This document shows positions 37,568-54,614 of a stretch of 57,697 bases of DNA, in pieces. Within the stretch, counting starts at the first letter, position 1. Each line of letters begins with the position of its first letter. Origin of the DNA: Verrucomicrobiota bacterium (GTDB lineage: Bacteria; Verrucomicrobiota; Verrucomicrobiia; Palsa-1439); contig VHCW01000021.1 of the NCBI GenBank assembly GCA_016871575.1, positions 1 through 57,697 on the forward strand, written 5' to 3'. The notes beneath the pieces were generated by a model. It was not told the origin of the DNA. It made no database searches and saw only the letters and a program-made list of their open reading frames with translations. Both the position numbers and the translations under genes were made by a program.

Positions 37568-39348
37568 AAACTCTTCTTCTACTCGCCTTTCTTTGCGCCT
37601 CATTCGCTTTTGCGGAAAAACCGAACATCGTCCTCATCATCACCGACGACCAGGGCTACGGCGATCTCTCGATTCACGGCAACCCGCATTTGCAGACGCC
37701 GCACATTGACCGGCTCGGCCAGAGCGGCGTCCGCTTCGACCGGTTCTACGTGAACTCGTTCTGTGCGCCGACGCGCGCTGCCCTGCTGACCGGGCGCTGG
37801 CCGGTGCGCACCGGCTGCCACGGCGTCACCCACAACCGCGAGGCAGTGCGGCCTTCGGAAGTGACGATTGCGGAGGCGTTGAAGGGCGCGGGCTATCGCA
37901 CGGGGTGTTTTGGAAAGTGGCACAACGGCGAGCAGTATCCCTTCACACCGCAAGGACAGGGCTTCGACGAGTTCTTCGGGTTCAACAACGGCCACTGGAA
38001 CAATTACTTCGATGCCACCTTGCTGCGCGGCGCAACACCGGAACGCACCAGGGGCTACATCACCGACGTGCTCACCGATGAAGCGATGAAGTTCATCGGC
38101 TCAGACCAAAAGAAACCGTTCTTCTGTTACCTCTCCTACAACGCGCCGCACTCGCCCTTTCAGGTGCCGGACCGTTACTTCGACAAGTTCAAGGCGAAAG
38201 GTTTTGAGGAGAACGTGGCCGCCTTTTACGGCATGTGCGAGAACATTGACGACAACGTCGGCCGGCTGCTCGCGCACCTCGACAAACTGAAACTTGCCGA
38301 CAACACCATCGTCCTGTTCCTCACCGACAACGGCGGCACTGCCGGCGTCAAAATCTACAACGCCGGGATGCGCGGCGGCAAAGTCAGCGTCCACGAAGGC
38401 GGCAGCCGCGTCCCGCTCTTCGTTCGCTGGCCGGCGGCGAACTGGAAACCATGCGTTGTGAAGCAGATCGTCTCGCACATTGATCTGTATCCGACGCTGC
38501 TCGATCTCTGCGGCGTAAAACCGCCAAGGGGACCGAAGGTGGACGGCATCAGTCTGCGACCGTTGCTGGAAGGCGGTGACTTGTTGTGGCCGGAGCGCGT
38601 CCTCTTCACGCACAACCCGATTGACGAGACCAACAAGTTCCCCGGCGCCGTGCGCACGCAACGCCATCGTCTTGTGCGCGAGATCAAAGGTCCCGGCGGC
38701 GGCTCGAAAGCCAAAGCCAACGACGCCAGCGCCATCGCGTGGCAGCTCTACGACATGGAAGCCGACCCCGGCCAAGAGAAGAACATCGCCAACGACCATC
38801 CCGACCTCGTCGCGAAACTCAGCAAACTCTACGACGCTTGGTTTGCCGACATCTCGCGCGACGGCCTCCAGCGATTCCCGCTTCCCATCGGCTACGCACA
38901 GCACAATCCCGTCGAACTCCACGCGCCGCAAGCGTACTTCGACAAGCCGTTGCTATTCGCCAACGGCCCCGGCTTCGCCAACGACTGGCTGACCGGCTGG
39001 ACCGACGCGAAAGCCAAAGTCTGGTTTGACATCGAGGTCGTGGCTGCTGGCCGCTACGACATTGAACTGGCGTTTGCCTGTCCGAAAGAAGACGCCGGCT
39101 CCAAAGTGCGCGTGACGGTTGGCAACAATACGCTCGAAGCCGTTGTGCCGGCGGCTGTTGCCAAAGAAATCCCGTTGCCCCATCGCGACGCCATTGGCAG
39201 GGAACGTTACCGCAATCGCGACTGGGCGACGTTGAAACTCGGCACCGTACATTTGTCCAAAGGCTCTGCCAAACTCACCGTCGAAATCCTCTCCAAACCC
39301 GGCGCCGCCGTGATGGACTTCAAACATGTGAAACTGAAACGTCTATGA
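37564..39348 (+). CDS. Exported sulfatase with C-terminal carbohydrate-binding-like domain
   Basis: A 594-residue sulfatase. Signal peptide [17 protein letters not shown]; formylglycine site C-A-P-T-R at Cys67; N-terminal metal motif [17 protein letters not shown] for the second pair. After about residue 460 an extra domain follows (G-Y-A-Q-H-N-P, then [17 protein letters not shown]), strand-rich and resembling CBM6/35-type modules seen fused to sulfatases. It overlaps both neighbours by four bases. Distinct from the other three in sequence, so it probably acts at a different position of the sulphated glycan. Confidence 0.93.
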
Positions 39349-40715
39349 GAACATTCATTCTTTTCCTTGCGCTTCTTGCGCCTCTTTGCGGCCAACTCTT
39401 CGCCAAACCGAACATCATTTTTATCCTCGCGGACGATGTGGCGCAGGGCGACCTCGGTTGCTACGGCCAGAAACTCATCAAGACGCCAAACCTCGACCGG
39501 ATGGCGGCGGAAGGCACGCGGTATCTGCAAGCGTATTGCGGAACGCCGGTTTGCGCGCCCTCGCGCACATCATTGATGACGGGATTGCATTGCGGCCATA
39601 CGCCTTCGCGCGGAAACAAGAAACCGCCGGGCACCTCTGAAGGCCAATGGCCGTTGGCCGCGAAGACGCTCACAGTGGCGGAAGTGCTCAAAGGACAAGG
39701 CTACGCCACCGCCTGCATGGGCAAGTGGGGCATGGGGTATTTCGACACGACGGGCAGCCCGTTGAAGAAAGGGTTCGATCATTTCTTCGGCTACAATTGC
39801 CAGAGCAAAGCGCACAATTATTTCCCACCGTATCTCGACAACGACGACAAGCGGTTGCCGCTGGACGGAAAAACCTACGCGCAGCATCTCATCCAGAAGG
39901 AGGTGCTCGACTGGGTGCGAAAACAAAAAGACCGCCCATTTTTCCTTTTTTACTCCGTCACGCTGCCGCACGGGAAATATGAGATTGACGATCTGGGCAT
40001 CTACAAGGACAAGCCGTGGTCCGAACAGGAGAAGACCTACGCCGCCATGGTCACGCGCCTCGATACCGATGTCGGCGCGCTGCTCGCATTGCTGAAACAA
40101 CTGAAGATTGATCGGAACACGCTGGTCATGTTCGCCGGCGACAACGGTTCGTCCTTCAACCCGACATCCGAGATCGGCAAGTTCTTCGACCAGTCCATGG
40201 GTGGCAAACTGCGCGGATTCAAACGCACGATGTATGAAGGCGGCCTGCGGCAAGCCGCGTTGGCGCGCTGGCCGGGTGTGGTGACGGCAGGTCGAGTCAC
40301 CGATGAGCCGTGGGCGTTTTGGGATTTCCTGCCGACTGCCGCCGAACTGGCCGTCGCGAAGCTGCCCGCAAGCTTCACGCCCGATGGTTACTCATTGGTC
40401 TCCTTCCTCAAAGGCGGCCCTGCGCCAAAGCGCGATTATTTCTATTGGGAACTTCACGAAGGCAGCCGCCCGCTTCAAGCTTGTCGTTTCGGCAACTGGA
40501 AGGCGGTCAAAAACGGGCCGTCAGCGCCGATTGAAATTTACGATCTCAGCAAAGACGAGTCAGAAACGAGCAACCTCGCTGCCAGCCGTCCCGACTTGGT
40601 AACGAAAGCCGAATCCATTATGAGGCGAGCGCACGTGGACGACCCCAACTGGCCGATGCAGGAAACTCCGAAGAAGAAAAAGAAGAACGTCAACGCAAAG
40701 AAAAGCCGATTATGA
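39345..40715 (+). CDS. Exported sulfatase
   Basis: A 456-residue sulfatase. Signal peptide residues 1-20; [10 protein letters not shown] near 28; formylglycine motif C-A-P-S-R at Cys70, followed by [17 protein letters not shown] for the second metal pair; M-G-K-W-G-M near 125. The C-terminus ends in a lysine-rich tail ([11 protein letters not shown]). It lies in the overlapping series, four bases shared on each side. Substrate class not resolved; homology-group assignment (SulfAtlas) would need a search. Confidence 0.93.
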
Positions 40716-42109
40716 AGAAATGGAACTTCACACTGATTACATTCTCATTGGCGCTGTTGTTGGCAACGCCGCCGGTGTTTGCCGGCGGCAAACGCGACGA
40801 ACGCCCGAACATCCTTTTTTGCATCGGCGACGACTGGGGCTGGCCGTCCTGTGGCGCGCTGGGCGACAACGTGGTGCGCACGCCGACCTTTGATCGCGTG
40901 GCGCGCGAGGGGGTGTTGTTCCCGCACACCTATTGCGCCGCTCCGTCCTGTTCGCCGTCACGCGCCTCGATTCTGACCGGGCAGATGTTTTACCGGCTCG
41001 AAGAAGGCGCCATCATCTGGAGCAAACTTCCAAACAAGTTCCCTGTCTATACCGACATGCTGGAGGCCGCAGGGTATCATGTTGGCCTCATGCGCAAAGG
41101 TTGGGGGCCGGGATCCTACGAAGCCGGCGGCTGGAAACGAAATCCGGCTGGAGCAAGCTACAAGAGTTTCACAGAGTTCCTGCAGAGCGTTCCGAAGGGC
41201 AAGCCGTTCTGTTTCTGGTTCGGCACGACCGATCCGCATCGTCCTTACGAACTCGGATCGGGAGCGCGCGATCATCGAATCGAAGACGTCCGCGTGCCCC
41301 CGATGTTGCCCGACGTGCCGGCGGTGCGAAACGACATCCTCGACTACTACGTCGAGGTGGAGCGCGCCGACCGCGAGATTGGCGAAATGCTCAAACTGCT
41401 CGAAGTCGCCGGCCAACTCGACAACACGCTGGTGCTCATCACCGGCGACAACGGCTGGCCGTTCCCGCGCGGCAAGGCCAATCTCTACGACTACGGCACA
41501 CGCCAGCCGCTCGCCGTGCGCTGGCCGGCGCGTGTCAAGGGTGGTCGTGTCGTGGACGATTTCATCAGCTTCTGCGATTTCGCGCCGACGTTTCTGGAAG
41601 CCGCCGGATTGAAGCCGACGTCTGACATGACGGGCCGCAGTTTTCTCGGCGTGCTTGCCAGCGGCAAGGCAGGCCGGGTGGATCCGAAACGCGACCGGGT
41701 GGTGGTCGGCCTGGAACGGCACGGCCAGCCATACCCGATGCGCTCGATCCGCACGCATCAATTCCGTTACATCCGCAACTTCAAACCGGAGGAACCGTAC
41801 CGGGTTTGCGATGACGGCCCGTCGAAGGCGTACCTGTTCGAGCACGCCGACGATCCGAAGGTCAAACCGCTCTTTGAATTGTGCTTCGGCAAACGGCCCG
41901 CCGAGGAACTCTACGACCATTCCAAAGACCCGCACGAGTTGCGCAACGTGGCCGGCGATCCCGCCTACGCTGCTGTGAAAAAACGCCTCGCGGCCGACTT
42001 GGAAAACTACCTGCGCGAAACGAAAGACCCGCGCGTCATCGGCGGCGCGGAGATGCTCGACCACGCTCCCTCCTTTCGGGATGCGCTGAAGAGTAAGAAG
42101 AAAAAATAG
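40712..42109 (+). CDS. Exported sulfatase (S1_8-like)
   Basis: A 465-residue sulfatase. Signal peptide residues 1-24; [10 protein letters not shown] near 36; the formylglycine motif here is C-S-P-S-R at Cys80, the serine-flanked variant. [10 protein letters not shown] is the second metal region. It resembles the heparan/N-sulfoglucosamine sulfohydrolase-like group by its G-D-D-W-G-W-P start, though this is from memory. Last gene of the overlapping sulfatase operon; a promoter begins 32 bases after its stop. Confidence 0.92.
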
Positions 42110-42189: not shown

Positions 42190-43227
42190 ATGAAAACCAA
42201 TCCATCCCCTCTTCGGTTCGGACTGATCGGCTGCGGCGCCTGGGGCAGCCATCACGCCCGTGTCATTGCCAAAACCAACGGCGCGCACTTGGCCGCCATC
42301 GCCGAGCGATCGGACGAGAACCGCGCCGCCGCGCAAACCAACCATCCCACCGCCAAGGTCTATTCCGACTTCCACGAGATGTTGCGGAAAGAACAACTCG
42401 ACGCCGTGGACATCGTGCTGCCGGCACACGTGCATTACGAGGCGGCAAAGGCGTCGTTGGAAGCGGGCTGTCACCTGCTCTTGGAGAAACCGATGTGTCT
42501 CCAACTCGATCAGTGCGATGAACTGATCGCGCTGGCGCGCGCCAAGAAACTTCAACTGGCCATCGGGCACGAGTTCCGGTTGTCGTCGTTGTGGGGAAAG
42601 GTGAAGGAGATGGTGGACGAGGGCGCCATTGGTGACCCGCGCTATTGCCTGATCGAATTGTGGCGCAACCCGTACCGGCTCGGCACCGGCGGCTGGCGCT
42701 ACAACATCAAGCAGGTTGGCAACTGGATTCTGGAGGAACCGATTCACTTCTTCGATCTGGCGCGTTGGTATTTCGGGAAGGTCGGCGAGCCGGTTTCCGT
42801 GGTGGCGTTTGCCAGCCACAAACGCGACGAGCATCCGGAGTTGCAGGACAACTTCAGCGCGATGATCAACTTCCCCAACAGCGGCTACGCGGTCATCTCG
42901 CAGACGCTTGCCGCCTACGAGCACCATCAGATCGTCAAGCTGACCGGCACGCGCGGCGCGCTCTGGGCCAGTTGGAGCGGCGCGATGGACCGGACGTTCC
43001 ATCCGACGTTTTCGCTGAAGTATTTCGATGGCGAGAAGACGCAGGAGGTCGCGCTGACCAAGACCACCGGCGAAGTCTATGAGTTGGAAGAGGAAATCGC
43101 AAACCTGACGGCAGCGGCGCGCGGCGGTGAACTGCGTTGCGCGACGGGCGAGGACGGCCGCTGGTCGGTGGCATTGTGTTTGAAGGCGCAGGAATCGGTG
43201 GACACCGGCAAAGTCGTGAAGTTCTGA
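42190..43227 (+). CDS. Gfo/Idh/MocA-family NAD(P)-dependent oxidoreductase
   Basis: A 345-residue cytoplasmic protein. The Rossmann motif G-L-I-G-C-G-A-W-G-S lies at residues 11-20, the E-K-P-M-C segment with the active-site lysine near 102, and the C-terminal beta-sheet domain contains W-N/R-Y-N-I-K-Q-V-G-N-W and I-H-F-F-D-L-A-R-W-Y. The start at 42190 is the first ATG after the promoter. First gene of the putative sulfonate-sugar operon; its TGA overlaps the ROK ATG by one base. The role could be oxidation of a sugar or NAD-assisted glycoside cleavage (GH109/GH177/GH188-type chemistry occurs in this fold). Which one is not readable. Confidence 0.88.
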   Translation: MKTNPSPLRFGLIGCGAWGSHHARVIAKTNGAHLAAIAERSDENRAAAQTNHPTAKVYSDFHEMLRKEQLDAVDIVLPAHVHYEAAKASLEAGCHLLLEKPMCLQLDQCDELIALARAKKLQLAIGHEFRLSSLWGKVKEMVDEGAIGDPRYCLIELWRNPYRLGTGGWRYNIKQVGNWILEEPIHFFDLARWYFGKVGEPVSVVAFASHKRDEHPELQDNFSAMINFPNSGYAVISQTLAAYEHHQIVKLTGTRGALWASWSGAMDRTFHPTFSLKYFDGEKTQEVALTKTTGEVYELEEEIANLTAAARGGELRCATGEDGRWSVALCLKAQESVDTGKVVKF

Positions 43228-44363
43228 TGTCGCGCATCAAAACAAAACATCACACCATCGCCGCGGTGGAAGCCGAGTTGCTCAAGCGCGTGCGTGTGCA
43301 TGGACGGATTTCGCGCGTGGAATTGTCGCGCAAGCTCAACATCGTGCCGTCCACCGCCGGTATCTATGTGGACCGGCTGATTCGTGACGGATTTCTCGTG
43401 GAATCGGCAAGAAGGGAACAGCGTTCCGGCCGGCCACCGAAACTGCTGGAATTGAATCCGGCGGGCGGACGATTTGTGGGTGTGGACTTTGAAGCGCGCA
43501 ACCTGATGGCGACAGCGGTGGATTTTTCCGAGAAGCCGGTGCGACAGGTTCACAAGGCGATTCGCGCAGCGGATTCCGCCGGGCAAATCCTCGACAAGAT
43601 CGAACAGGCGATTGCCGAGGTGATGGACGGCGGTCCGCGCTCGGTGTTGGGCATTGGCGTCGGCGTGCCGGGCACGGTTGATCCGCACAGCGGCGTGGCG
43701 CTCCACTACGAATTCATCAAGGGCTGGAAAGACATTCCGCTCGGAACGCGGTTGGCCAAGAAGTTCGGTGTGCCGGTGTTTCTGGAGAACAACATCCGTT
43801 GCATGGCGCTGGCGGAACTCTGGTTCGGCGGCGGACGTGGCTTGCAGGATTTCGTGTGCATCGGCGTGCGCTCCGGCATCGCTGCCGGGGTGATTGTGAA
43901 CGGGCACCTGTTGCGCGGCAGCAGGAACCGGGCAGGCGAGATCGGTCATTGGCATTGTGGGGACGCGCGGCTCGAACATGTGGCGTCGCTCTCGGCGATG
44001 ATCGAGACGGCGCAACGGGCGATTGATCGCGGCAGGAAAACTTCTCTGGCAACAGCGAACGGCGAGTTGACCATCGAAGACATCGTCAGCGCAGTGCAAG
44101 CGGGCGATGCGTTTGCGCTCTCGTTGATCGAGGATGCAGCCCGCGTGCACGGTTGGGTGGTCAGCGAATTGAGCGTGTTGTTCGATCCGCAGAAAATCAT
44201 TTTTGCCGGGCCGCTGGCGGAACTGGGCGAGGCGTTTCTCGCGCCGGTCCGTCAATCGGTCACGGAATCGGATGTAACCGTTACCGCTTCCACGCTTGGA
44301 CAATACAACGGCGCATTGGGCGCGGCGGCGCTGGCGTTGCACCAATGGAAACCGAAACGATAA
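43227..44363 (+). CDS. ROK-family transcriptional repressor
   Basis: A 378-residue protein: winged-helix DNA-binding domain at about 12-70 (R-V-H-G-R-I-S-R-V-E-L-S-R-K-L and the S-G-R-P-P-K-L wing), then the sugar-kinase fold with F-V-G-V-D-F-E-A-R-N, G-I-G-V-G-V-P-G-T-V-D and N-I-R-C-M-A-L-A-E. The usual ROK zinc motif C-x-C-G-x-x-G-C after G-H is not intact: it reads G-H-W-H-C-G-D-A-R-L-E. It would bind a sugar ligand and control the operon starting at 42142, including itself. TGATG junction with the previous gene. Confidence 0.88.
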   Translation: MSRIKTKHHTIAAVEAELLKRVRVHGRISRVELSRKLNIVPSTAGIYVDRLIRDGFLVESARREQRSGRPPKLLELNPAGGRFVGVDFEARNLMATAVDFSEKPVRQVHKAIRAADSAGQILDKIEQAIAEVMDGGPRSVLGIGVGVPGTVDPHSGVALHYEFIKGWKDIPLGTRLAKKFGVPVFLENNIRCMALAELWFGGGRGLQDFVCIGVRSGIAAGVIVNGHLLRGSRNRAGEIGHWHCGDARLEHVASLSAMIETAQRAIDRGRKTSLATANGELTIEDIVSAVQAGDAFALSLIEDAARVHGWVVSELSVLFDPQKIIFAGPLAELGEAFLAPVRQSVTESDVTVTASTLGQYNGALGAAALALHQWKPKR

Positions 44364-44373
44364 GGAGCAAATC

Positions 44374-45783
44374 ATGACGGACAATGACAAGGCAATTATT
44401 GCGCGGCTCGTGGAGAAAGCGCACGCAGCGCAGCGGTTGGTGGAGAATTATACGCAGGAACAGATTGACAATGTCTGTCTGTCCATCGCGTGGCAGACGT
44501 ACAACGACACGAATGTGCAGGCCTGCGCCAAGAGCGCCGTGGAAGAAACCGGCATGGGCAAGTACGAGGACAAGGTCACCAAACACAAAGTGAAAGTCCT
44601 CGGCGTCATCAAGGATGTGACGGGAGCGAAGAGCGTCGGGGTGATTGAAGAAGACAAGGAGAAGAAGATTACCAAGATCGCGAAGCCGGTGGGCGTTGTC
44701 GGCGCGTTGACGCCGGTGACCAACCCGACGGCCACGCCAGCCAGCAATGCCGTCAGCATCTTGAAAGGGAGGAACGCTGTGATTTTTGCGCCGCACCCGA
44801 AAGGCAAGAAATCGTGCGCGCTCGTCTGCGGGTTCATGCGGGAAGGATTGCGAAGGGTCGGCGCGCCGGAGGATTTGATTCAGTGGATCGAAGAACCGAG
44901 CGTGGAACTCACCAACGAACTGATGCGTCGGGTGGACCGCGTTCTGGCCACCGGCGGAAACCCGATGGTGAAAGCCGCGTATTCGAGCGGCACGCCGGCA
45001 TATGGAGTCGGCGCGGGCAATCCGGTGATCATTGTGTGCGAAGATGCTGACGTCAAAGACGCCGCCAAGAAGATTCGCATCAGCAAAACTTTCGACCACG
45101 CCACGTCTTGTTCGTCTGACAATTCAATTGTCATCCAGAAGAACGTCTTTGACCGCGTGGTGGAGGCGTTGAAGGCGGAAGGCGGTTACCTTTGCACCAA
45201 CGAGGAACGCGACCGTCTGGAGAAATGGATGTGGGTTGCCAATCCGAAGACCGGTCAGGTTGGATTGAACCCGAAGATCATCGCCACGCCGGCAAAGAAG
45301 ATCGCGGATGGCGCGGGAATCACAGTCCCTGACAACACGACGATGTTGATGGTCGTGGGCGAGAATCCGGGCAAAGGCCATTTCAGTGGCGAAAAAATTT
45401 CGCCGGTGATGGCGCTTTGGACGTACGACAAATTCGACGAGGCACTCGAAATCCAGCGGAAACTCACCGAATACACGGGGATCGGACATTCCTGCGGGAT
45501 TTTCACGTTCAATCAGGATTACATCCGTACCTTGGCCTTCGCTGCCAAGACGAGTCGCATCATGGTGCGGCAACCGATGGCGCCGTCGAATGGCGGAAAT
45601 TTCTTCAACGGCATGCCCTCCACGGTGAGTCTGGGTTGTGGTTCGTGGGGCGGGAACATCACCAGCGAAAACATCACGTGGAAACACTTCATCAACACGA
45701 CGTGGGTCTCGGAGCCGTTCGATCCCGTCAAGCCCACGGATGAAGCGATGTGGGGCGAGTTCTGGAGGCGGTTTGGAAAATGA
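44374..45783 (+). CDS. CoA-acylating aldehyde dehydrogenase (sulfoacetaldehyde dehydrogenase-like)
   Basis: A 469-residue acylating aldehyde dehydrogenase of the EutE/SauS/PduP type. The nucleophile is Cys246 in H-A-T-S-C-S-S-D-N; P-V-T-N-P-T-A-T-P near 115 and A-T-G-G-N-P-M-V-K near 197 are family motifs. AAGGAG precedes ATG 44374. With the following ADP-forming ligase it makes an aldehyde-to-acid route that conserves energy: aldehyde + CoA + NAD to acyl-CoA, then acyl-CoA to acid with ATP. In the sulfo-transketolase pathway the same enzyme class (SqwD) oxidises sulfoacetaldehyde. No microcompartment shell genes are nearby and no encapsulation peptide is visible, arguing against EutE or PduP roles. 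Confidence 0.85.
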   Translation: MTDNDKAIIARLVEKAHAAQRLVENYTQEQIDNVCLSIAWQTYNDTNVQACAKSAVEETGMGKYEDKVTKHKVKVLGVIKDVTGAKSVGVIEEDKEKKITKIAKPVGVVGALTPVTNPTATPASNAVSILKGRNAVIFAPHPKGKKSCALVCGFMREGLRRVGAPEDLIQWIEEPSVELTNELMRRVDRVLATGGNPMVKAAYSSGTPAYGVGAGNPVIIVCEDADVKDAAKKIRISKTFDHATSCSSDNSIVIQKNVFDRVVEALKAEGGYLCTNEERDRLEKWMWVANPKTGQVGLNPKIIATPAKKIADGAGITVPDNTTMLMVVGENPGKGHFSGEKISPVMALWTYDKFDEALEIQRKLTEYTGIGHSCGIFTFNQDYIRTLAFAAKTSRIMVRQPMAPSNGGNFFNGMPSTVSLGCGSWGGNITSENITWKHFINTTWVSEPFDPVKPTDEAMWGEFWRRFGK

Positions 45784-46901
45784 AGCTGTTTGAATATCAG
45801 GCGAAAGAACTTTTTGCGGAAGCCGGTATTCCGGTTCCCAAAGGCGCACTGGTCGAAAACGAAGCCGATTGCGCGGCGGCGATTGAAAAGGTCGGACTGC
45901 CGTGTGTGATCAAGTCGCAGGTGCTGCAAGGTGGGCGGGGAAAAGCCGGGCTGATTCAACTAGCCGAGACCAAAGAAGAGGCCTTGCTCAAAGCCCACGA
46001 CCTGATGGTCAACCGGAACGTTGGGAAACTTCTCTTTGAGGAAGCGTTGAGCAAGGAGAAGGAAATCTACATCGCAGTCACGATTGACCCGGTGGATTCC
46101 AGCGCGCTCATCATGGCTTCTTCCGAAGGCGGCATGGAGATCGAGGAAGTCGCCGTCAAGATGCCGGACAAGATAGTCAAGGAACGCGTGAAGATGTTTC
46201 GGGCGCTGTCGCCGTTTCAGGTCCGGAACGTCATGTTCGGACTCGGACTGAAAGGCGAAGCGTTCAAGCAGGGCGCGACCATCCTGCCGAAGATGTTTGA
46301 GCTGTTCAAAAAATTCGACGCCGAACTTGTGGAGATCAATCCGCTCATCCTGACCAAGGACGGCCGGCTGGTCGCCGCCGACGGCAAGGTCAGCATTGAT
46401 GACAATGCCGGTTTCCGCCAGAAGCGATTCCCGATCACCCGCGATCACTTTGACAGCGATGTCGAATACGAAGCCGCGGTCAAAGGGATTCCCTACCTGC
46501 AATTCGACGGGAAGATCGCGTTGATGTGCGCTGGCGCCGGGCTGACCAACACGGTGTATGACTTGATCAACTATTACGGCGGCAGCGTCGCCAGCTACCT
46601 GGAGTTCGGCGGCCCAAATTACCGGCGAGCCGCGGAAGCGATGGACTTGACGTTGCGCAACAAACCCGCGGTCGTGTTGATTGTGACGTTTGGCACGATT
46701 GCCCGCGCCGATGTGATGGCGCAGGGAATCGTCGACGCCATTGCGCAGTTGAAACCAAGCGCGCCGATCATCACCGCCATCCGCGGCACGGGCGAAGAGG
46801 AGGCCGCAGCGATTCTCAAGAAGACGGGGCTGGAACCGATTTCGGACACCGAAGAAGCCGTGAAACGGGCCGTCGAACTTTCAAAGGGCGGTGCGCGATG
46901 A
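45780..46901 (+). CDS. ADP-forming acyl-CoA ligase, SucC-like beta subunit (sulfoacetate-CoA ligase candidate)
   Basis: A 373-residue ATP-grasp subunit beginning M-K-L-F-E-Y-Q-A-K-E-L-F, as in SucC, with Q-V-L-Q-G-G-R-G-K-A-G in the ATP-grasp region and E-I-N-P-L for Mg. The loops that contact succinate in true SucC differ: the usual G-G-I-V-R-C-D is G-T-I-A-R-A-D, and the R-L-E-G-T-N region reads A-I-R-G-T-G. Overlaps both neighbours by ATGA. The pair probably runs from acyl-CoA to acid, making ATP. Position in this operon, rather than with TCA genes, argues against succinyl-CoA synthetase. Confidence 0.85.
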   Translation: MKLFEYQAKELFAEAGIPVPKGALVENEADCAAAIEKVGLPCVIKSQVLQGGRGKAGLIQLAETKEEALLKAHDLMVNRNVGKLLFEEALSKEKEIYIAVTIDPVDSSALIMASSEGGMEIEEVAVKMPDKIVKERVKMFRALSPFQVRNVMFGLGLKGEAFKQGATILPKMFELFKKFDAELVEINPLILTKDGRLVAADGKVSIDDNAGFRQKRFPITRDHFDSDVEYEAAVKGIPYLQFDGKIALMCAGAGLTNTVYDLINYYGGSVASYLEFGGPNYRRAAEAMDLTLRNKPAVVLIVTFGTIARADVMAQGIVDAIAQLKPSAPIITAIRGTGEEEAAAILKKTGLEPISDTEEAVKRAVELSKGGAR

Positions 46902-47782
46902 GCATCTTCATTGATTCCGAAACCAAAGTGCTCGTCCAAGGAATTACGGGCAACGAAGGGAGCTTCTGGACGAAACACATGCTCGGTTGCGGCACGCACG
47001 TGGTGGGCGGCGTCACTCCCGGCAAGGCAGGACAGCAAGTCGAAGGCGTTCCCGTCTTCAACACAGTGCGCAAAGCGGTGGCCGAGACGAAAGCGGATGC
47101 GTCCGTCCTCTTCGTTCCGCCGGCGTTCACGAAGGACGCGGTGTTCGAGGCGTTGGATGCCGGCATTGGGAAGATTGTCGTCACGGCGGAAGGAGTGCCG
47201 GTTCACGATGCGATGGAAATCCGAGCGGCTGCTCTTTCCGAGAAAGCGATGGTCATTGGCGGTAACACCTCCGGCGTCATCACGCCGGGAAAAGCGATGA
47301 TGGGGATTTTCCCGTACTGGATTGACCGGGTGTACCGCCCGGGCACGATCGGCGTGATGACACGAAGCGGCTCGTTGACAAATGAAGTCACCGCGATGGC
47401 CATCAAAGCCGGGTTTGGTGTTTCCACGCTTGTCGGCGTCGGGGGCGACTCCGTGCCGTGCACGCGATTCGCCGAACTGCTGCCGCTTTATGAAAAGGAC
47501 GACGGAACAAAAACCATCCTGATGATCGGCGAACTGGGCGGGACCATGGAGGAAGAAGTCGCCGAGGCCATCGAGATGCGCGTCTTCACGAAGCCGATGG
47601 TCGCTTTCATCGCGGGCAGGACCGCGCCCTCCGGCAAGAGAATGGGACACGCCGGCGCCATCGTAAGCGGCGGCAAAGGCTCGGTCGCCGGCAAGATCAA
47701 GGCGCTGGAGAACGTTGGTGTTTTCGTGGCCGATCGTCCGAGCGCTGTCGGGCCACTGATGCAGAAAGCGGTGGCGAAGTGA
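46898..47782 (+). CDS. ADP-forming acyl-CoA ligase, SucD-like alpha subunit (sulfoacetate-CoA ligase candidate)
   Basis: A 294-residue CoA-binding subunit with V-G-G-V-T-P-G-K-A-G near 38-47 and the phosphohistidine His251 in R-M-G-H-A-G-A-I-V, as in SucD. The highly conserved G-P-N-C-P-G-V-I of succinyl-CoA synthetases reads G-G-N-T-S-G-V-I, so the acyl pocket has changed. Overlaps the beta subunit and the permease gene by four bases each, ensuring equal translation. In the sulfo-transketolase pathway the equivalent two-subunit enzyme (SqwKL) releases sulfoacetate with ATP. Confidence 0.85.
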   Translation: MSIFIDSETKVLVQGITGNEGSFWTKHMLGCGTHVVGGVTPGKAGQQVEGVPVFNTVRKAVAETKADASVLFVPPAFTKDAVFEALDAGIGKIVVTAEGVPVHDAMEIRAAALSEKAMVIGGNTSGVITPGKAMMGIFPYWIDRVYRPGTIGVMTRSGSLTNEVTAMAIKAGFGVSTLVGVGGDSVPCTRFAELLPLYEKDDGTKTILMIGELGGTMEEEVAEAIEMRVFTKPMVAFIAGRTAPSGKRMGHAGAIVSGGKGSVAGKIKALENVGVFVADRPSAVGPLMQKAVAK

Positions 47783-49236
47783 AGTCCAAGAACATGATTT
47801 TGTTTCTGGCGTCGCTGGCCGTCATGGCGGTCATCATGATGTTGCCGTCGCCGCCGAAGATTGTGACCGACAGCGGAGTGATTGCCCTGACCTCACCGGG
47901 AAAGACTTCGTTGGCGGTGCTGGTGATGGTGGTGATCTTGTGGGTCACCGAGGCGATTCCGTTTCCCATCGCGGGACTGTTGGGAATGGTGGCCCTCGTG
48001 ATGACCGGGACGGCGGAGTTTAATGCCCTCATCAAGGAGGGTTTCGGCAACAACATCATCATGTTCTTCATCGGCGTCATGATTTTCTCGGCCGCCATCA
48101 CGGAAACGAACCTGATGAAACGGCTGACGACATCCATGCTGCGACGATACGGGCATCAACCGAAGATGATCATCCTGATGTTCCTTTGCGTCGGAACATT
48201 CATCTCGGCGTGGATCACCGACATGGCGGTCGCGGCGATGCTGCTGCCGATTGGCGTGTCCATTCTCAAGGACGCCAAGGCCGAGCCGATGAAAAGTAAT
48301 TTTGGCAAGGCGCTGATGATCTCCTGCGCGTGGGGGCCGCTGATCGGCGGAATCGCCACGCCGGCGGGCTGCGGCCCGAATCCACTGACCATGGCGTTCC
48401 TCAAGGACCTGGCCGGCATCAATTTCACGTTCATTGACTGGATGATTGTCGGTTTTCCCGCGGCGATCTTGATGGTTCCGTTCGCGTGGGGCATCCTGCT
48501 TCTTTTCTTCCCACTGGAGAAGATTAATCTCACCATGGCCGATGAGGAATTCCGGAAGAGAAGCGAGGAACTGGGTAAGTTCAAGCGCGACGAAATCTGC
48601 ACGCTAATCATCTCCGCCATCACCATCGCCCTTTGGATTTGCGAGCCGTTCATCGTCAAATGGACCGGCGGCAAGGTCAATTACCTCGGCATCTCGTTTG
48701 TCGCCATTGCTTGTGCCTGCCTGTTCTTCATTCCGGGACTGACAACGTTGACGTGGAAGAAAGCCGAACAGGAAATCAGTTGGGGCGGCATTGTCCTGAT
48801 CGCAAGCGGGCTGTCGCTCGGCATGGCCGTCTATCATACCGGCGCTGCCGCGTGGCTGGCGCACGTCTGTTTCAGCAAGATCGGGTTGCTGCATCCGTTG
48901 CTCATCATCTTCATGGTGGTGCTGGGCGTTTCCATCATCAAGGCGATGTTCTCCAGCAACACCGCCACCGGCATCATCATGGTGCCGCTGCTCATCGCGC
49001 TGGCAAAGAGCATTCACATTGATCCCGTGCTCGTGGCAATCCCCGCGGGAATCACGTCTTCGCTGGCGTTCATTCTCGTGACCTCCACGCCGACGAACGT
49101 CATTCCGTATTCCGCGGGCTATTTCTCAATCAAAGACATGGCGAAAGCCGGGGCTGTGATGACCGTCGCCGCGTGCCTTTGCGTGACGGTATCATTGGCT
49201 GTTTTCGGCAGACTGTCCGGACTCGTTAAATTCTAA
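47779..49236 (+). CDS. DASS/SLC13-family anion permease (candidate sulfonate transporter)
   Basis: A 485-residue polytopic protein with about 11-12 hydrophobic segments. W-V-T-E-A-I-P-F-P near 55, I-T-D-M-A-V-A-A-M-L-L-P (a variant of the first SNT motif) near 150 and the second motif S-N-T-A-T-G-I-I-M near 400 identify the divalent anion:Na symporter family. Relatives move dicarboxylates or sulphate. In this operon it would export the final organic acid (sulfoacetate) or import a substrate. Overlaps the ligase gene by four bases; AAGGAG precedes the next gene. Confidence 0.85.
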   Translation: MKSKNMILFLASLAVMAVIMMLPSPPKIVTDSGVIALTSPGKTSLAVLVMVVILWVTEAIPFPIAGLLGMVALVMTGTAEFNALIKEGFGNNIIMFFIGVMIFSAAITETNLMKRLTTSMLRRYGHQPKMIILMFLCVGTFISAWITDMAVAAMLLPIGVSILKDAKAEPMKSNFGKALMISCAWGPLIGGIATPAGCGPNPLTMAFLKDLAGINFTFIDWMIVGFPAAILMVPFAWGILLLFFPLEKINLTMADEEFRKRSEELGKFKRDEICTLIISAITIALWICEPFIVKWTGGKVNYLGISFVAIACACLFFIPGLTTLTWKKAEQEISWGGIVLIASGLSLGMAVYHTGAAAWLAHVCFSKIGLLHPLLIIFMVVLGVSIIKAMFSSNTATGIIMVPLLIALAKSIHIDPVLVAIPAGITSSLAFILVTSTPTNVIPYSAGYFSIKDMAKAGAVMTVAACLCVTVSLAVFGRLSGLVKF

Positions 49237-49249
49237 CAAGGAGAAAACA

Positions 49250-50095
49250 ATGACAGAGAAATTCGACCAAGAACAATTCGACCAGATGGCGGCGGAATGG
49301 CGCTACATCATGACCGACATGATCTGCCGCGCCGGGTCCGGCCACCTCGGCGGGGCGCTCAGCCTCGTCGAGATCGTCATGACGCTTTACTACCGCGTCA
49401 TGCGGACCGACCCGAAGAACCCGCGCTGGGACGAACGCGACCGGCTCGTGCTCTCGAAAGGACACGCTGCGCCGGTGCTCTACCTCGCGCTCGCTTATCA
49501 GAACTTCTTCCCGACATCGTGGCTGAAGACGCTCAACGCCGACGGCACGAAGCTGCCGAGCCACGCCGACGCGCGTTTTGTGCCGGGCGTTGACATGACC
49601 ACCGGGTCGCTCGGCCAAGGTCTCTCGTGCGCTTGCGGCGCCGCGTATGCCGCGCGCATGGACGGCAAGAAGCACCGCGTCTTCTGCATCATCGGCGACG
49701 GAGAATCCAACGAAGGCCAGAACTGGGAAGCCGCGATGTTCGCCGGCCACCACAAACTCGACAACCTCGTCGCCATCACCGACTACAACAAACTCCAGAT
49801 TGATGATTTCACCGAGAAGCTGCTCACGCTGGAGCCGCTCTGCGACAAATGGCGCTCGTTCGGCTGGGAAGTCTTCGAGACCGATGGCCACGATTGGGAC
49901 GCGATTTACGACACGATCAACGCCGCCATCGCCGTCCGCGGCAAACCGGCGATGATCATCGCGCACACCATCAAGGCCAAAGGCTGCTGCCTCGTCGAGA
50001 ACAAACCCGAGAGCCATAACATCAAGGTCCCCGACCAAGCTGCCTATGACAAGTTCCTGAACGCGATGAACACCAAAGCCACACTGCCGTACTGA
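49250..50095 (+). CDS. Transketolase, N-terminal subunit (sulfo-transketolase candidate)
   Basis: A 281-residue split-transketolase half with the thiamine-diphosphate motif G-D-G-E-S-N-E-G beginning at Gly149 and D-Y-N-K-L-Q about 25 residues later. S-G-H-L-G-G near residue 29, S-K-G-H-A-A-P near 70 and T-G-S-L-G-Q-G-L near 118 are all canonical. Pairs with the C-terminal half 9 bases downstream. Two-carbon transfer from sulfofructose to glyceraldehyde 3-phosphate (giving sulfo-erythrose and xylulose 5-phosphate), and again from sulfo-erythrulose, is the proposed reaction (SqwGH type). Ordinary pentose-phosphate or other ketol transfer cannot be excluded. Confidence 0.9.
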   Translation: MTEKFDQEQFDQMAAEWRYIMTDMICRAGSGHLGGALSLVEIVMTLYYRVMRTDPKNPRWDERDRLVLSKGHAAPVLYLALAYQNFFPTSWLKTLNADGTKLPSHADARFVPGVDMTTGSLGQGLSCACGAAYAARMDGKKHRVFCIIGDGESNEGQNWEAAMFAGHHKLDNLVAITDYNKLQIDDFTEKLLTLEPLCDKWRSFGWEVFETDGHDWDAIYDTINAAIAVRGKPAMIIAHTIKAKGCCLVENKPESHNIKVPDQAAYDKFLNAMNTKATLPY

Positions 50096-50104: not shown

Positions 50105-51061
50105 ATGGAAAACACTTTACACAACAAGGAAATGCGTTTCGTCTATGGCGAGACGCTCAACGAACTGATCGAACAGAACCCGAACGTGATGTGCCTCGAA
50201 GCCGACCTGAGCAAGGCTTCCGGCACCAACCCGACGGTGTCGAGCAAACACCCGGCGAACTTCCTGAACATCGGCGTCGCGGAAGCGAACATGATCAGCA
50301 TCGGCGCCGGGCTGGCGTCGGAGGGGAAGATTCCGTTCTGCGCGAGCTTCACCTGTTTTGCTTCACGTCGCGTGTACGACCAGATCACCATCAGCGTCGC
50401 CTACGCCAACATGAACGTGAAGATCGTCGGCACCGCGCCCGGCGTCACCGCCGGGCCGAACGGCGGCACGCACATGTGTTTCCAAGACCTCGCCATCATG
50501 CGCGCCATGCCGAACATGACGGTGCTTTCGCCGTGCGATTGCTATGAGCTGCGCGCCTGCCTGCACTGGATGGCGGCGCACCGCGGCCCGGTTTATATGC
50601 AACTGATCCGGATGAAACAGCCGCAGGTGTTCGACAGCACGTATCGCTTCGCTCCCTGCAAGGCAGTCCACATGCGCCGCGGCAACGACGTCACGCTCGT
50701 CTCGACCGGCTACATGACGCCGTTTGCCATGCAAGCCGCTGACGAACTCGCGAAGGACGGCATCGCCGTTGACCTGCTGCACTGTCCGTCGGTGAAACCG
50801 TTCGACGCAGAGACGCTCGTCGCCTCGGCGAACCGCACCGGCGGAGTCGTGACGGTCGAAAATCAGAACATCCTCGGCGGTCTCGGCGGCGCGGTCTGCG
50901 AGATCCTGAGCGAACAGTGTCCCGTGCCGGTGAAACGGCTCGGCGTGCCCGATCAATTCGGCGAAGTCGCGACCGAGGCGTATCTGTTCGAGAAACACGG
51001 CTTCAGCGTCCAACATATCAAGCAAGCGTGCCGCGACATCGCGGCAAGGAGGCGGAAATGA
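50105..51061 (+). CDS. Transketolase, C-terminal subunit (sulfo-transketolase candidate)
   Basis: A 318-residue pyrimidine-binding and C-terminal half. The cofactor glutamate lies in I-G-V-A-E-A-N-M-I, where the usual sequence is G-I-A-E-Q-N-M. The substrate loop, generally G-x-D-G-x-T-H-Q, reads G-P-N-G-G-T-H-M, so acidic and Gln side chains near the substrate have changed. F-T-C-F-A-S-R-R-V-Y-D-Q-I and the C-terminal V-E-N-Q-N-I-L-G-G-L-G are regular. AGGAG precedes ATG 50105. Shares four bases with the isomerase gene. Confidence 0.9.
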   Translation: MENTLHNKEMRFVYGETLNELIEQNPNVMCLEADLSKASGTNPTVSSKHPANFLNIGVAEANMISIGAGLASEGKIPFCASFTCFASRRVYDQITISVAYANMNVKIVGTAPGVTAGPNGGTHMCFQDLAIMRAMPNMTVLSPCDCYELRACLHWMAAHRGPVYMQLIRMKQPQVFDSTYRFAPCKAVHMRRGNDVTLVSTGYMTPFAMQAADELAKDGIAVDLLHCPSVKPFDAETLVASANRTGGVVTVENQNILGGLGGAVCEILSEQCPVPVKRLGVPDQFGEVATEAYLFEKHGFSVQHIKQACRDIAARRRK

Positions 51062-51558
51062 GAATCGTCATCGGTTCCGTGGTCAGGGGATTCGCGCTGA
51101 AAATCGCGATCAAGCCGTGGCTGGAGAAGAACGGTCACACGGTCATTGACGTGGGCTGTCCCGACACTTCGGTGTTCGTGAAGTTCCCCTCGATAGCCGA
51201 GCGGGCCGCCCGCGTGTTGCAGAAAGGCGAGGCCGACCTCGGTGTGCTCTGCTGTGGCAGCGGCACCGGCATGGCGTTGTGCTCCGGCAAGTTTGCCGGC
51301 GTCTGCGCCATCGCGGCGGAAAGCCCGATGGCTGCTGAATTTGGCCGACGCGTCAACGACGCCAACGTCGTCTGCATGGGCGAGAGCCTCGTCGCGCCGG
51401 ACGTCGCCTGCCGGATCGTACAGACTTTTGTCGAAACAAAATTTCAGGTCGCACCGGGTGTCCCGTCGAAGATTCTGGAATTCTGGAAGGAAGCGCGCGA
51501 GGAAGTTTTCCCGAAAGGCGTTGTCGCCCGCGACCGCGAGATGGAAACGCTGCCTTGA
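51058..51558 (+). CDS. RpiB/LacA-family isomerase lacking phosphate-binding residues (sulfo-erythrose isomerase candidate)
   Basis: A 166-residue aldose-ketose isomerase. The catalytic-type Cys66 is in V-L-C-C-G-S-G-T-G-M. The normal G-S/C-D-H-A/V-G-F start is G-S-V-V-R-G-F, so the Asp-His pair is lost and an Arg introduced. The C-terminal G-G-R-H-x-x-R-V phosphate-binding segment is replaced by A-P-G-V-P-S-K-I. Loss of His and Arg phosphate ligands fits a substrate without a terminal phosphate, such as 4-deoxy-4-sulfo-erythrose, the SqwI reaction. A real ribose-5-phosphate isomerase B is unlikely. Confidence 0.85.
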   Translation: MRIVIGSVVRGFALKIAIKPWLEKNGHTVIDVGCPDTSVFVKFPSIAERAARVLQKGEADLGVLCCGSGTGMALCSGKFAGVCAIAAESPMAAEFGRRVNDANVVCMGESLVAPDVACRIVQTFVETKFQVAPGVPSKILEFWKEAREEVFPKGVVARDREMETLP

Positions 51559-51602: not shown

Positions 51603-52922
51603 ATGAACAACGCAACGACTCGAAGGGATTTTCTCAAACAATCGGTCGCCACGCTGGCGGCGTTGACGCCGCTGGCCGGCACGGTTCCGACCGGCGTTTT
51701 CGCGGCGGGCAGTGACCGGATTCGCGTCGGCATCATCGGCTGCGGCGGACGCGGCACCGGCGCGGTCACCAACTGCCTGGAAGCGGACCCGGCGGTCGAG
51801 ATTGTCGCCGTTGCCGACGCGCTTTCCGATCGTGTGGCAAAATTCAAAGACCAACTCACTAAGTGGTGCCAAGAGCATCTGAAAGAGGGCGAGCGTCGTG
51901 TCAAGATTACGCCAGACACCACTTTCCTCGGTTTCGACAGCTATCGGAAACTGTTGGCGATTCGTCCGCTTGATGTGGTGGTCATCACCTCCTCGGTTGT
52001 TTTCCATCCGCTGCATCTCGAAGCGGCCATTCAGGCCGGTAAACACGTCTTTGTCGAAAAACCGGCGGGTGTTGACCCGGTCGGCGTGCGGCGCGTCATC
52101 GCCGCCGGCGAGCTGGCGAAACAAAAAGGCTTGTCGGTCGTCGCCGGCACGCAACGCCGCCATGATCCGGTGTACATTGAGAATCACAAGGCTGTGGCCG
52201 ACGGCGCCATCGGAAAAATCATATCCGGCCGGGTCTGGTGGTGCGGCGGCGATCCGCGTCGTGTGTATGACCGGGTCGAGGGCGAAAGCGACGCGCAATT
52301 CATGGTTCGGAACTGGTATCAGTTTGTCGAAATGTGCGGCGACCACATCGTCGAGCAACACGTTCACAACCTCGATGTGGCGAACTGGTTCATTGGCCGT
52401 CCGCCGCAACTGGCGCTTGGTTTCGGCGGTCGCGCCCGCCGCGAGCTGGGTAATCGCTACGATTTCTTCAGCGTTGATTTTGATTATGGTGACGACGTGA
52501 CGGTCCACAGCATGAGCCGCCAGATCAACGGCTGCTACCAGCGCACCAGCGAGCAATTGGTGGGCGCCACCGGTTCCGTGTGGCCCGGTGGCAAGATCAC
52601 GGGAACACGACCGCGACCCGCGCGTCGGGACACGGTCAACCCGCTCGTTCAGGAGCATGTTGATCTCATCCGCAGCATCCGCGAAGGCAAACCGCTGAGC
52701 GAGGCGCGCGGTCTTGCCGAAGCGACGCTGACGGCCATCATGGGGCGCATCTCCGCCTACACCGGACAAATTGTTCGTTTGACCGACCTGACGGAACGCA
52801 AAGACAGTCCTTGGTACAACCTCGCGCTGAGTCCGACAGCGGAGGATTTTGAGAAAGGCACTGTGAAACTTCCGCCTACCGGTGTGGTTCCCCTTCCCGG
52901 CGCCGCCACTCCAACGAAGTGA
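51603..52922 (+). CDS. Tat-exported Gfo/Idh/MocA-family protein
   Basis: A 439-residue protein; AGGAG about ten bases before ATG 51603. The twin-arginine signal is T-T-R-R-D-F-L-K followed by a hydrophobic stretch. The Rossmann motif G-I-I-G-C-G-G-R-G-T lies near 41-50, then F-V-E-K-P-A-G for the dinucleotide site, R-N-W-Y-Q-F and C-G-D-H-I-V-E-Q-H-V-H-N-L-D-V, the signature of the PVC-type exported subgroup. Exported members keep a bound NAD and some are glycosidases (GH109). Within this operon it could release sulfoquinovose from glycosides by NAD-assisted chemistry (cf. GH188), or act on another sugar. Unproven. Confidence 0.85.
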   Translation: MNNATTRRDFLKQSVATLAALTPLAGTVPTGVFAAGSDRIRVGIIGCGGRGTGAVTNCLEADPAVEIVAVADALSDRVAKFKDQLTKWCQEHLKEGERRVKITPDTTFLGFDSYRKLLAIRPLDVVVITSSVVFHPLHLEAAIQAGKHVFVEKPAGVDPVGVRRVIAAGELAKQKGLSVVAGTQRRHDPVYIENHKAVADGAIGKIISGRVWWCGGDPRRVYDRVEGESDAQFMVRNWYQFVEMCGDHIVEQHVHNLDVANWFIGRPPQLALGFGGRARRELGNRYDFFSVDFDYGDDVTVHSMSRQINGCYQRTSEQLVGATGSVWPGGKITGTRPRPARRDTVNPLVQEHVDLIRSIREGKPLSEARGLAEATLTAIMGRISAYTGQIVRLTDLTERKDSPWYNLALSPTAEDFEKGTVKLPPTGVVPLPGAATPTK

Positions 52923-52940: not shown

Positions 52941-53702
52941 ATGAACCAACCCAAACCCGCCACCTATGTCCCGTCTGAGACCAGTGCATTCCGCTACGTC
53001 GAGAAGTCCAGTCCGCAAACCTCCAACCTCCAGTTCCTGACCTACGGCGTTTATGAACTGACCGGTGCCGTCTGCTCCGGCGCGCTCGCGCATCCGGGTG
53101 AAGAAGCACTGTTGTTCGGTTGGCAGGGACAAGTCACCGCATTGCTGAACGGCACGCGATACACGCTGGGGCATTACGACGTGCTCTACATCCCGCGCGG
53201 CGCGGCCTACCAACTCGCGCAGGAAACCGGCGAGAGCAAGATCGTGGTCTGCCGCGCCCCGGCGGAAAAGACGCACCCGGTGTTCTACGCCGAATGGAAG
53301 AAGTTCTCGCGCGACGAAAAGCGCATCCGTCACCTCAAGGGCAAGGACGTGTTCCTGATGTTCGACGTGAGCGAAGCCGCCGACAAACTGATCGCCGGGT
53401 TTACGTTGTTCCAGCCGTATCAGCGGTCGTGGCCACCGCACAACCACACCGATCAGGAGGAAATCTACATCTTCGTCCGGGGCCGCGGTTCGATGGAAGT
53501 TTATGCCGACGAGGAGACCAAAAGTTTCGTACGCACGGTGAACGAAGGCGACGCCGTCACGATTCCGATCTTGAACTATCATCCCGTGTTCAGTCAGGAA
53601 CAGGAACTCGACTTCATCTGGTGCATCGCCGGCGAACGCTACTGGGTCGGCGACAAGAACAAGGACTTCATGACCGGCAAGGTGGACAAGCTGACCACAT
53701 GA
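52941..53702 (+). CDS. IolB/KduI-like bicupin isomerase
   Basis: A 253-residue double-cupin protein. The C-terminal cupin has a full metal set: His167, His169 and Glu174 in P-P-H-N-H-T-D-Q-E-E, and His214 in N-Y-H-P. P-I/S-W-P-P-H, E-I-Y-I-F and the W-C-I-A-G-E-R-Y-W segment resemble 5-deoxy-glucuronate isomerase (IolB). IolB and KduI isomerise aldoses or ketoses carrying an acid at C6, so a C6-sulfonate sugar is a natural variation: sulfoquinovose to sulfofructose is the candidate. No other inositol gene is near. Last gene of the operon; the facing gene ends 32 bases away. Confidence 0.75.
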   Translation: MNQPKPATYVPSETSAFRYVEKSSPQTSNLQFLTYGVYELTGAVCSGALAHPGEEALLFGWQGQVTALLNGTRYTLGHYDVLYIPRGAAYQLAQETGESKIVVCRAPAEKTHPVFYAEWKKFSRDEKRIRHLKGKDVFLMFDVSEAADKLIAGFTLFQPYQRSWPPHNHTDQEEIYIFVRGRGSMEVYADEETKSFVRTVNEGDAVTIPILNYHPVFSQEQELDFIWCIAGERYWVGDKNKDFMTGKVDKLTT

Positions 53703-53734: not shown

Positions 53735-54610
53735 TTACGCGGCGAAAATCTGTTTCATCTTGGCGGCGGTGTCGCGCGCAAGATCCAGATCGGGAAGCAC
53801 GAGGTCGGGCAGGCGGCTGAACGGCAGCATCTCCGCCGTGATCGGGCCGGTGTAGTTGATCTTGGCGAGGGCCGCCCTGACCGCGCCGAAATCCACGTCG
53901 CCCTGCAACAAATCGTCGCCAAAACCATGCAACACCCCGGCGCAATCGTCGCGCTTGAAGTTCTTGACGTGGACAGCGGCAATCCGGTGGCCGAGGATTT
54001 CGATCCAATGCTGCGGGTAGCCATTGATGACGCAGTTGCCCACGTCGAAATAGCAGCCGATATGCGGGCTGGCGAACTGGTCAATGAACAGTTTGAACTC
54101 CATCGGTCCCACGAGGAATTTGTTCCAGACATTTTCGAGCGCGAGCGTCACGCCGTGTTTCGCTGCGAAGGGCAGCAACTCTTTCAGCGACGCCGTGGCG
54201 TTGTCCCAGACCGTCTGGTAGGGCGTGACGGGAACCGACGGGTCCCACGCCACGTCCACGGCGCCGGGAATGACGAGGATCGTTTTCACGCCGAGCCAGT
54301 GCGCGACCTGGATGTATTGGCGCGTGAAATCAACGGCTGTCTTGCGCTGTGCCGGGTCGGCCGAGGACAACGGGCAACCCCAGTAATTGCCGCTGATCAA
54401 TGTTCCCAGCGTCATGCCGAGGCGGCGCGCATCTTCGCGGATTTGCTGGCAGGAGGCCTCGGCGGTGTCCGTGTTGAGCACACCGGCGCCGAACGCCAGT
54501 TCGAGGCCGTCGAATCCGCAGGCTTTGGCGTCCTCCAATGCTTGACGGATCGGTTTCTTGCCTTCGAAGCCGCCGATGGTCCAGTAGGTGATTTGCAGAA
54601 GATTGTTCAT
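53735..54610 (-). CDS. TIM-barrel sugar isomerase/epimerase (xylose-isomerase-like)
   Basis: A 291-residue AP_endonuc_2/xylose-isomerase-like protein, cytoplasmic. Metal ligands are readable: Glu in A-L-E-N-V-W-N, Asp in Y-F-D-V-G-N, His in V-H-V-K-N-F and the late Glu in I-T-A-E-M-L-P. The N-terminus, I-T-Y-W-T-I-G-G-F-E-G, is a regular first strand. It would isomerise or epimerise a free sugar or sugar acid. It follows the BNR gene by four bases on the minus strand and converges on the main operon; it could be an alternative candidate for aldose-ketose isomerisation there. Confidence 0.85.
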   Translation of the reverse strand: MNNLLQITYWTIGGFEGKKPIRQALEDAKACGFDGLELAFGAGVLNTDTAEASCQQIREDARRLGMTLGTLISGNYWGCPLSSADPAQRKTAVDFTRQYIQVAHWLGVKTILVIPGAVDVAWDPSVPVTPYQTVWDNATASLKELLPFAAKHGVTLALENVWNKFLVGPMEFKLFIDQFASPHIGCYFDVGNCVINGYPQHWIEILGHRIAAVHVKNFKRDDCAGVLHGFGDDLLQGDVDFGAVRAALAKINYTGPITAEMLPFSRLPDLVLPDLDLARDTAAKMKQIFAA

Positions 54611-54614
54611 GGGG

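Follow-up and report, generated by a model that had tools for sequence, protein, structure and literature searches.

A SqwI-type isomerase with a remodelled active site in a putative sulfoacetate-forming sulfo-TK operon of a Verrucomicrobiota genome

Two alternative endings of the sulfo-transketolase (sulfo-TK) pathway have been described, one with SqwF (plus SqwE) and the other with SqwD and the ADP-forming SqwKL, the latter being the sulfoacetate-forming variant (PMC12890257, PMC11659671). Reviews place it in Firmicutes, Spirochaetes, Thermotogae and Tenericutes (PMC12890257); for the PVC superphylum, no report of it was found in the literature searched, which excluded most subscription papers. 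SqwI is the least characterized sulfo-TK enzyme: 4-deoxy-4-sulfoerythrose (SE) isomerizes spontaneously to 4-deoxy-4-sulfoerythrulose (SEu), which hampers the SqwI assay, and the activity of no member has been directly measured (PMC9594981). In the related RpiB, His10/11 and two C-terminal Args bind the phosphate and His99/102 (E. coli His99, L. donovani His102) opens the furanose ring; in LacAB, the Asp of the D-H pair contacts a sugar hydroxyl, and the phosphate ligands are only the His and the Args (PMC4783025, PMC3755991).

In the window, i.e., the whole 57,697-nucleotide stretch of DNA that was analysed, we identified an RpiB-like protein, encoded from position 51058, that we regard with a probability of about 85% as the SqwI of a sulfoacetate-forming sulfo-TK operon in a Verrucomicrobiota genome (Table 1). 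SqwI, the proposed SE isomerase, is by far the best assignment for this protein in view of its operon, orthologue contexts and position in the tree. These were observed directly, as were its fold, residue pattern and conservation, whereas its substrate and catalysis, any role of its residues in anion binding and the direction of transport are inferred. Translation of positions 51058-51555 gives MRIVIGSVVRGF...LGVLCCGSGTGM...GRRVNDANVV...FQVAPGVPSK...ETLP, and the stop codon ends at 51558. The protein is matched by the Pfam profile PF02502 (LacAB_rpiB) at 116 bits, and in the Foldseek alignment it shares about 32% identity with structurally known RpiB. The open reading frame is intact, has a 4-bp overlap between its ATG and the stop codon of sqwH, and is preceded closely by AAGGAGG as a Shine-Dalgarno sequence, so that sqwI looks like a real gene; together with 20 orthologues bearing the same changes, these features rule out a pseudogene or sequencing error. 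The first-pass annotation had reported that the D-H pair of the RpiB motif G-x-D-H-x-G-F is replaced by V-V followed by a new Arg, that the C-terminal GGRHxxR segment is gone and that the catalytic-type Cys66 is kept, and we found the same: the motif reads GSVVRGF (Val8, Val9 and Arg10), the segment after F129 is QVAPGVPSK, with no GGRHxxR-like stretch beyond F129, and Cys66 is present. Two further changes were absent from that annotation, namely the replacement of the ring-opening His by Val at position 99 and of the Asp of D-Y-P by Lys at position 42.

Table 1. Predicted genes of the sqwI operon and its flanks (positions in the window).
Feature	Position	Strand	Evidence
Gfo/Idh/MocA oxidoreductase, possible SqgA-like NAD-dependent sulfoquinovosidase	42193..43227	+	PF01408
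ROK-family regulator, head of operon	43227..44363	+	PF00480; 58-61% identity to ROK gene beside sqwF-G-H-I in relatives
SqwD-type CoA-acylating sulfoacetaldehyde dehydrogenase	44374..45783	+	best NCBIfam match NF047625 (SauS) at 522 bits, the curated cut-off being 600
SqwK-type CoA ligase beta subunit (SucC-like)	45780..46901	+	54-64% identity to SqwK from clusters of Spirochaetes and Lentisphaerae
SqwL-type CoA ligase alpha subunit (SucD-like)	46898..47782	+	68-72% to SqwL in L058, L062, L063, L066, L039 and L042
DASS-family anion transporter, candidate sulfoacetate exporter	47779..49236	+	TIGR00785 at 233.8 bits (above the cut-off)
SqwG, N-terminal half of split transketolase	49250..50095	+	PF00456; 87-90% identity to relatives and 50-57% to SqwG of Spirochaete sulfo-TK
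SqwH, C-terminal half of split transketolase	50105..51061	+	PF02779 and PF02780; 76-77% identity to Verrucomicrobia relatives
SqwI-type RpiB/LacAB-fold isomerase	51058..51558	+	166 aa; D8V, H9V, R10, K42, C66 kept, V99, RHxxR absent
Second Gfo/Idh/MocA protein, 44 bp downstream of sqwI	51603..52922	+	-
KduI/IolB-type cupin, candidate sulfosugar isomerase or ring-opener	52941..53702	+	PF04962; 53% to gene directly after sqwI in Lentisphaerae L045
Xylose-isomerase-like TIM barrel	53738..54613	-	PF01261; same-family protein also follows the cupin in L045

The genes are ordered ROK-sqwD-K-L-DASS-G-H-I with gaps of -4 to 13 bp, sqwI being the last, and no sugar kinase gene was found within the operon. 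The D-K-L-DASS-G-H-I part is the known layout of sulfoacetate-forming sulfo-TK. All sulfo-TK SqwD proteins tested, that of the window included, score below the curated cut-off of the SauS model (523-537 bits for those of Spirochaetes and 507-537 bits for those of Spirochaetes and Lentisphaerae together, similar to the window SqwD), and the DASS transporter is 43-47% identical to its counterparts in the sulfoacetate clusters of Spirochaetes. Just upstream of the operon, at positions 34242-42109 of the window, are four genes for S1-type sulfatases and one for a GH127 beta-L-arabinofuranosidase. Since a canonical RpiB and a full canonical transketolase are both encoded elsewhere in the genome, the pentose phosphate pathway does not require the RpiB-like and transketolase copies of the operon, and housekeeping roles for them were rejected. 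The canonical RpiB (L025:2423-4741, on contig C13 of the same genome) belongs to a fusion protein of 773 aa, in which it lies between a low-molecular-weight phosphatase and a serine hydroxymethyltransferase; RpiB also lies within open frames of 720-800 aa in many relatives, and this fusion looks common in the phylum.

Based on this layout, we propose that the operon breaks down a sulfonated plant sugar, that SqwGH would transfer C1-C2 of 6-deoxy-6-sulfofructose to glyceraldehyde 3-phosphate and leave SE, that SqwI would convert SE to SEu via a cis-enediol with Cys66 as the base, and that SqwGH would then remove a second C2 unit to leave sulfoacetaldehyde. SqwD would convert sulfoacetaldehyde to sulfoacetyl-CoA, SqwKL would convert the latter to sulfoacetate and ATP, and the DASS protein may export the sulfoacetate, export being the presumed direction.

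The clusters of related genomes share this core. The D-K-L-DASS-G-H-I order recurs in L039, L042 and L058, while L062, L063 and L066 have the same genes with sqwGHI placed first. In the four Verrucomicrobia relatives, Gfo/Idh-ROK-G-H-I is kept and an Fe-ADH (SqwF) replaces D-K-L-DASS, accompanied in three of the four loci by TauE, which is the isethionate layout. That one core is combined with either of the known endings argues strongly for sulfo-TK. SqwF, SqwD, AOR, TauE or DASS is found in the flank examined at 19 of the 21 loci with a PVC-type SqwI, and a FucI-like isomerase at the other two, whereas such a terminal module is absent from all five PVC loci where this transketolase occurs without a PVC-type SqwI (Fisher p = 3e-4 for sequences that are not independent). 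A FucI/SqvD-like isomerase is nearby in 13 PVC loci. PVC loci without sulfo genes (L032, L038 and L047) have split transketolases of this clade too, and in Lentisphaerae WC36 (L056:6332-10231) an SqwGH-like split transketolase is accompanied by a ribulokinase-like kinase and a canonical RpiB with D-H and RHxxR kept; the SqwGH clade thus also serves ordinary pentose breakdown. Given these four loci, SqwG was dropped as the sole marker of sulfo-TK. In another cluster (L041:4650-6482), an aldehyde ferredoxin oxidoreductase takes the place of SqwD-SqwKL just before DASS-sqwG-H-I, and a second one is found at L077:12661-14502, which suggests a third, ferredoxin-linked route of sulfoacetaldehyde oxidation.

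The genome, which is about 95% complete in 257 contigs, was also searched for entry enzymes. No GH31 (YihQ-type) sulfoquinovosidase and no close SqvD were found in it; for an SQ isomerase of the SqvD or YihS type, it yielded only distant FucI-like proteins and two AGE-family proteins, all on other contigs. The Gfo/Idh protein encoded from 42193 is 45-67% identical to proteins whose genes adjoin sqwF/sqwG in many other PVC clusters and matches SqgA (GH188; 8qc2), which is not its best PDB match, at 3e-17. The 42193 protein could be a SqgA-type NAD-dependent sulfoquinovosidase (PMC10755693) acting where GH31 is absent. Both in the window and in L045 (3136-4735), the genes downstream of sqwI include one for a KduI-type cupin and, after it, one for a xylose-isomerase-like TIM barrel; the cupin encoded from 52941 is a candidate for isomerization or ring opening, and the pair possibly replaces a classical SQ isomerase or mutarotase. 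The missing GH31 and SqvD, along with the recurrence of cupin and TIM barrel beside sqwI in L045, would also suit a sulfo-TK that acts on a C4 sulfosugar derived from a hexose other than sulfoquinovose and uses Gfo/Idh, cupin and TIM barrel as its entry enzymes. We consider such a substrate unlikely, as SqvD-like isomerases adjoin many of the PVC SqwI relatives, which suits sulfoquinovose, and entry genes may be elsewhere or missing in an assembly of this completeness and fragmentation.

To place the residue changes among orthologues, GTDB genomes were scanned with the neighbouring transketolase subunit, which yielded 80 loci. Twenty of them carry a PVC-type SqwI and belong to Verrucomicrobia, Lentisphaerae/Victivallales, Kiritimatiellota and Planctomycetes, apart from one labelled Paceibacterota, probably by a binning error. 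The closest relatives, from four Verrucomicrobia genomes of the same class as that of the window, are 52-56% identical, and 11 of 388 sampled genomes of the phylum, that of the window included, hold a PVC-type SqwI, scattered across families. Asp8, His9, His99 and RHxxR are absent and Cys66 is kept in all 21 PVC sequences (the window protein and 20 orthologues), whereas D8, H9 and H99 are retained in all 16 sampled RpiB proteins (Fisher p = 8e-11 for the D8-H9 contrast, with sequences that are not independent). In the PVC sequences, position 8 is Val (11), Pro (9) or Ala (1), position 9 is Val (18) or Ala (3), position 10 is Lys (19) or Arg (2), and positions 42, 66 and 99 are invariably Lys, Cys and Val, respectively. 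The 16 SqwI proteins of Spirochaetes and Anaerolineaceae all have Asp8, Leu9, Ser10, Pro42 and Cys66, with Val (10) or Ile (6) at position 99 and no RHxxR. Among the 16 RpiB proteins, all have Asp8, His9 and His99, with Ala, Gly or Val at position 10, Asp at position 42 in 15, Cys (10) or Gly (6) at position 66 and RHxxR in 13. Both SqwI groups have a basic residue at position 49 (Arg in all 21 PVC sequences; Lys in 15 of the others, with one X), as does only one of the 16 RpiB proteins. Two clostridial SqwI proteins (L141 and L142), picked by the published sulfo-TK layout, read GSDKSGF and RAINNAN/RAINDAN, so that they are without His9, His99 and RHxxR but keep Asp8; both loci contain SqvD, DUF4867, SqwF and SqwGH, and L141 additionally GH31 and TauE. 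What sets the PVC branch apart is that it has lost Asp8 and gained K/R10 and K42. A third SqwI type (ASTRAGL, MINNAN) is encoded in a sulfo-TK cluster of Phycisphaerae (L033:9847-10317); it groups with the Spirochaete SqwI, yet its SqwGH are PVC-type (73% and 69%), which implies mixed ancestry inside one operon.

Because SE is reported to isomerize by itself (PMC9594981) and most classical active-site residues except Cys66 are gone, SqwI might alternatively be catalytically weak or dispensable, its degenerate site reflecting relaxed selection. However, Cys66, the GSGTG loop, N100, A102, N103, K/R10, K15, K42, R49 and K78 are invariant in the 21 PVC sequences, and in four phyla the operon has retained sqwI; this indicates purifying selection rather than decay and makes a weak or dispensable SqwI very unlikely.

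In the phylogenetic tree, the PVC SqwI form a single clade (support 100/98), and PVC and Spirochaete SqwI, together with the outliers L033 and L111, the latter an unassigned clostridial RpiB-like protein, stand apart from RpiB, LacB and DerI (99/93). Of the PVC branches in the full tree, that of the window protein is the deepest. When the trait columns are left out, the overall grouping is the same at lower support (79/85), L111 moves into the PVC group and the placement of all SqwI in one clade is not rejected (p = 0.18); independent origins of the PVC and Spirochaete SqwI are thus unsupported by the tree or the one-clade test. The AF2 model of the window protein has the RpiB fold (pLDDT 97.2, pTM 0.92) with an additional C-terminal helix. 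Its best Foldseek matches are LacB (4lfk_B, TMq 0.81) and RpiB (3he8), and no SqwI is among the solved structures matched.

Regarding what the losses mean, the suggestion that the missing D-H and RHxxR residues are phosphate ligands applies to the His and the Args but not to the Asp, which is the sugar-hydroxyl contact in LacAB (PMC3755991, PMC4783025). Likewise, when the protein is aligned with known SqwI, as the first-pass annotation had proposed, the absence of the His and of RHxxR extends to Spirochaete and clostridial SqwI, but Asp8 is kept there; SqwI proteins retaining both D-H and RHxxR, which that annotation had named as counter-evidence, were thus not seen. That annotation also took the protein for an SE isomerase on the argument that a sulfonate substrate explains the changes; the assignment is backed by the operon, the orthologue neighbourhoods and the tree, but the argument is not supported, because DerI has lost His9, His99 and RHxxR as well and yet uses a phosphate substrate. 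DerI reads GADSAGK and KSNNAQ and has no RHxxR, and the control DerI of L109 scores 255.7 bits on NCBIfam NF051858 (cut-off 240). More likely, the losses in DerI and SqwI have a common cause, namely a four-carbon chain that is blocked at C4, forms no furanose and brings the anion one carbon nearer. SE, without a 4-OH, cannot close a furanose ring, so His99 would be dispensable, and its anion is one carbon nearer the reacting centre than that of ribose 5-phosphate, so the His9/Arg-His-Arg pocket would be unused. The residue losses therefore fit a ring-less C4 substrate, and it is the gene context that points to a sulfonate. Among the conserved cations, K/R10, K42 and R49 are candidates for holding it; we do not equate K42 with LacB Arg39, a phosphate ligand, as its counterpart in our alignment is the His of LacB R-T-H-Y-P, two residues off. 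That the protein is instead a DerI/EryI-type isomerase of D-erythrose/erythrulose 4-phosphate, in an operon degrading a tetrose or a related non-sulfonated sugar, would agree with these shared losses and with the ordinary pentose context of a split transketolase in L056, but is very unlikely, given that the protein scores 70.2 bits on the DerI equivalog model, that DerI groups apart from SqwI in the tree, keeps Asp8 and is without K42 and R/K10, that the operon is without a sugar kinase, and that the SauS-like SqwD, SqwKL and DASS, plus SqwF/TauE in relatives, point to C2 sulfonates.

With the protein taken as SqwI, we tentatively suggest, at somewhat short of even odds, that the PVC superphylum has its own branch of sulfo-TK, with a SqwI remodelled by loss of Asp8/His9 and gain of K/R10 and K42 that leaves Cys66 as the main classical catalytic residue, and with non-classical entry enzymes (Gfo/Idh as a possible sulfoquinovosidase and the KduI cupin perhaps as a sulfosugar isomerase); these degraders, rich in sulfatases, would then be unrecognised producers of sulfoacetate and isethionate. 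Sulfo-TK in Verrucomicrobia, Lentisphaerae, Kiritimatiellota and Planctomycetes would widen the range of likely C2-sulfonate makers that feed sulfide-producing bacteria. For SqwI itself, the aligned clades offer testable residues: the shared losses of His9, His99 and RHxxR, the shared base Cys66 and the branch cations K/R10 and K42. The comparison with DerI is a warning that lost phosphate ligands do not reveal sulfonate specificity.

Among the known systems, DhuI (4-deoxy-L-threo-5-hexosulose-uronate ketol-isomerase, 4u8f) shares the RpiB fold and a phosphate-free substrate with the window protein, but has about 210 aa, is 18% identical and acts on a uronate. LacB (galactose-6-phosphate isomerase) is the best Foldseek match, is without RHxxR and has an extra C-terminal helix, which in LacB lines the phosphate site (PMC3755991), but it keeps D8-H9 and works only when paired with LacA; sqwI is a single gene with no LacA-like partner beside it, and the LacA and LacB models are far below their cut-offs. 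RpiB has in common the fold, the base Cys66, the GSGTG/GTG loop, N100 and K78, but keeps D8-H9, D-Y-P, H99 and GGRHxxR, none of which is found in the window protein, whose score on the NCBIfam RpiB equivalog model is 97.2 bits vs a cut-off of 138.65 bits. DerI/EryI (D-erythrulose-4-phosphate isomerase) matches in the C4 substrate class and in the loss of His9, His99 and RHxxR, but differs in its Asp8, Ser9 and Ser99, in having no K42 and in its separate position in the tree. The known SqwI (of MSTE9, Acholeplasma, Faecalicatena and Spirochaetes) resemble the window protein in PF02502, the SqwG-SqwH partners, the retained Cys66, the lost His9, His99 and RHxxR and the grouping in the tree, although those of Spirochaetes are only 29-36% identical to it, and the PVC SqwI differ in the loss of Asp8, in K/R10 and K42 and in a different C-terminal region with a terminal helix. 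Sulfo-TK itself is already known; relative to the literature searched, the addition is a probable SqwI from a further lineage, whose active site is altered more strongly and which forms a branch of its own.
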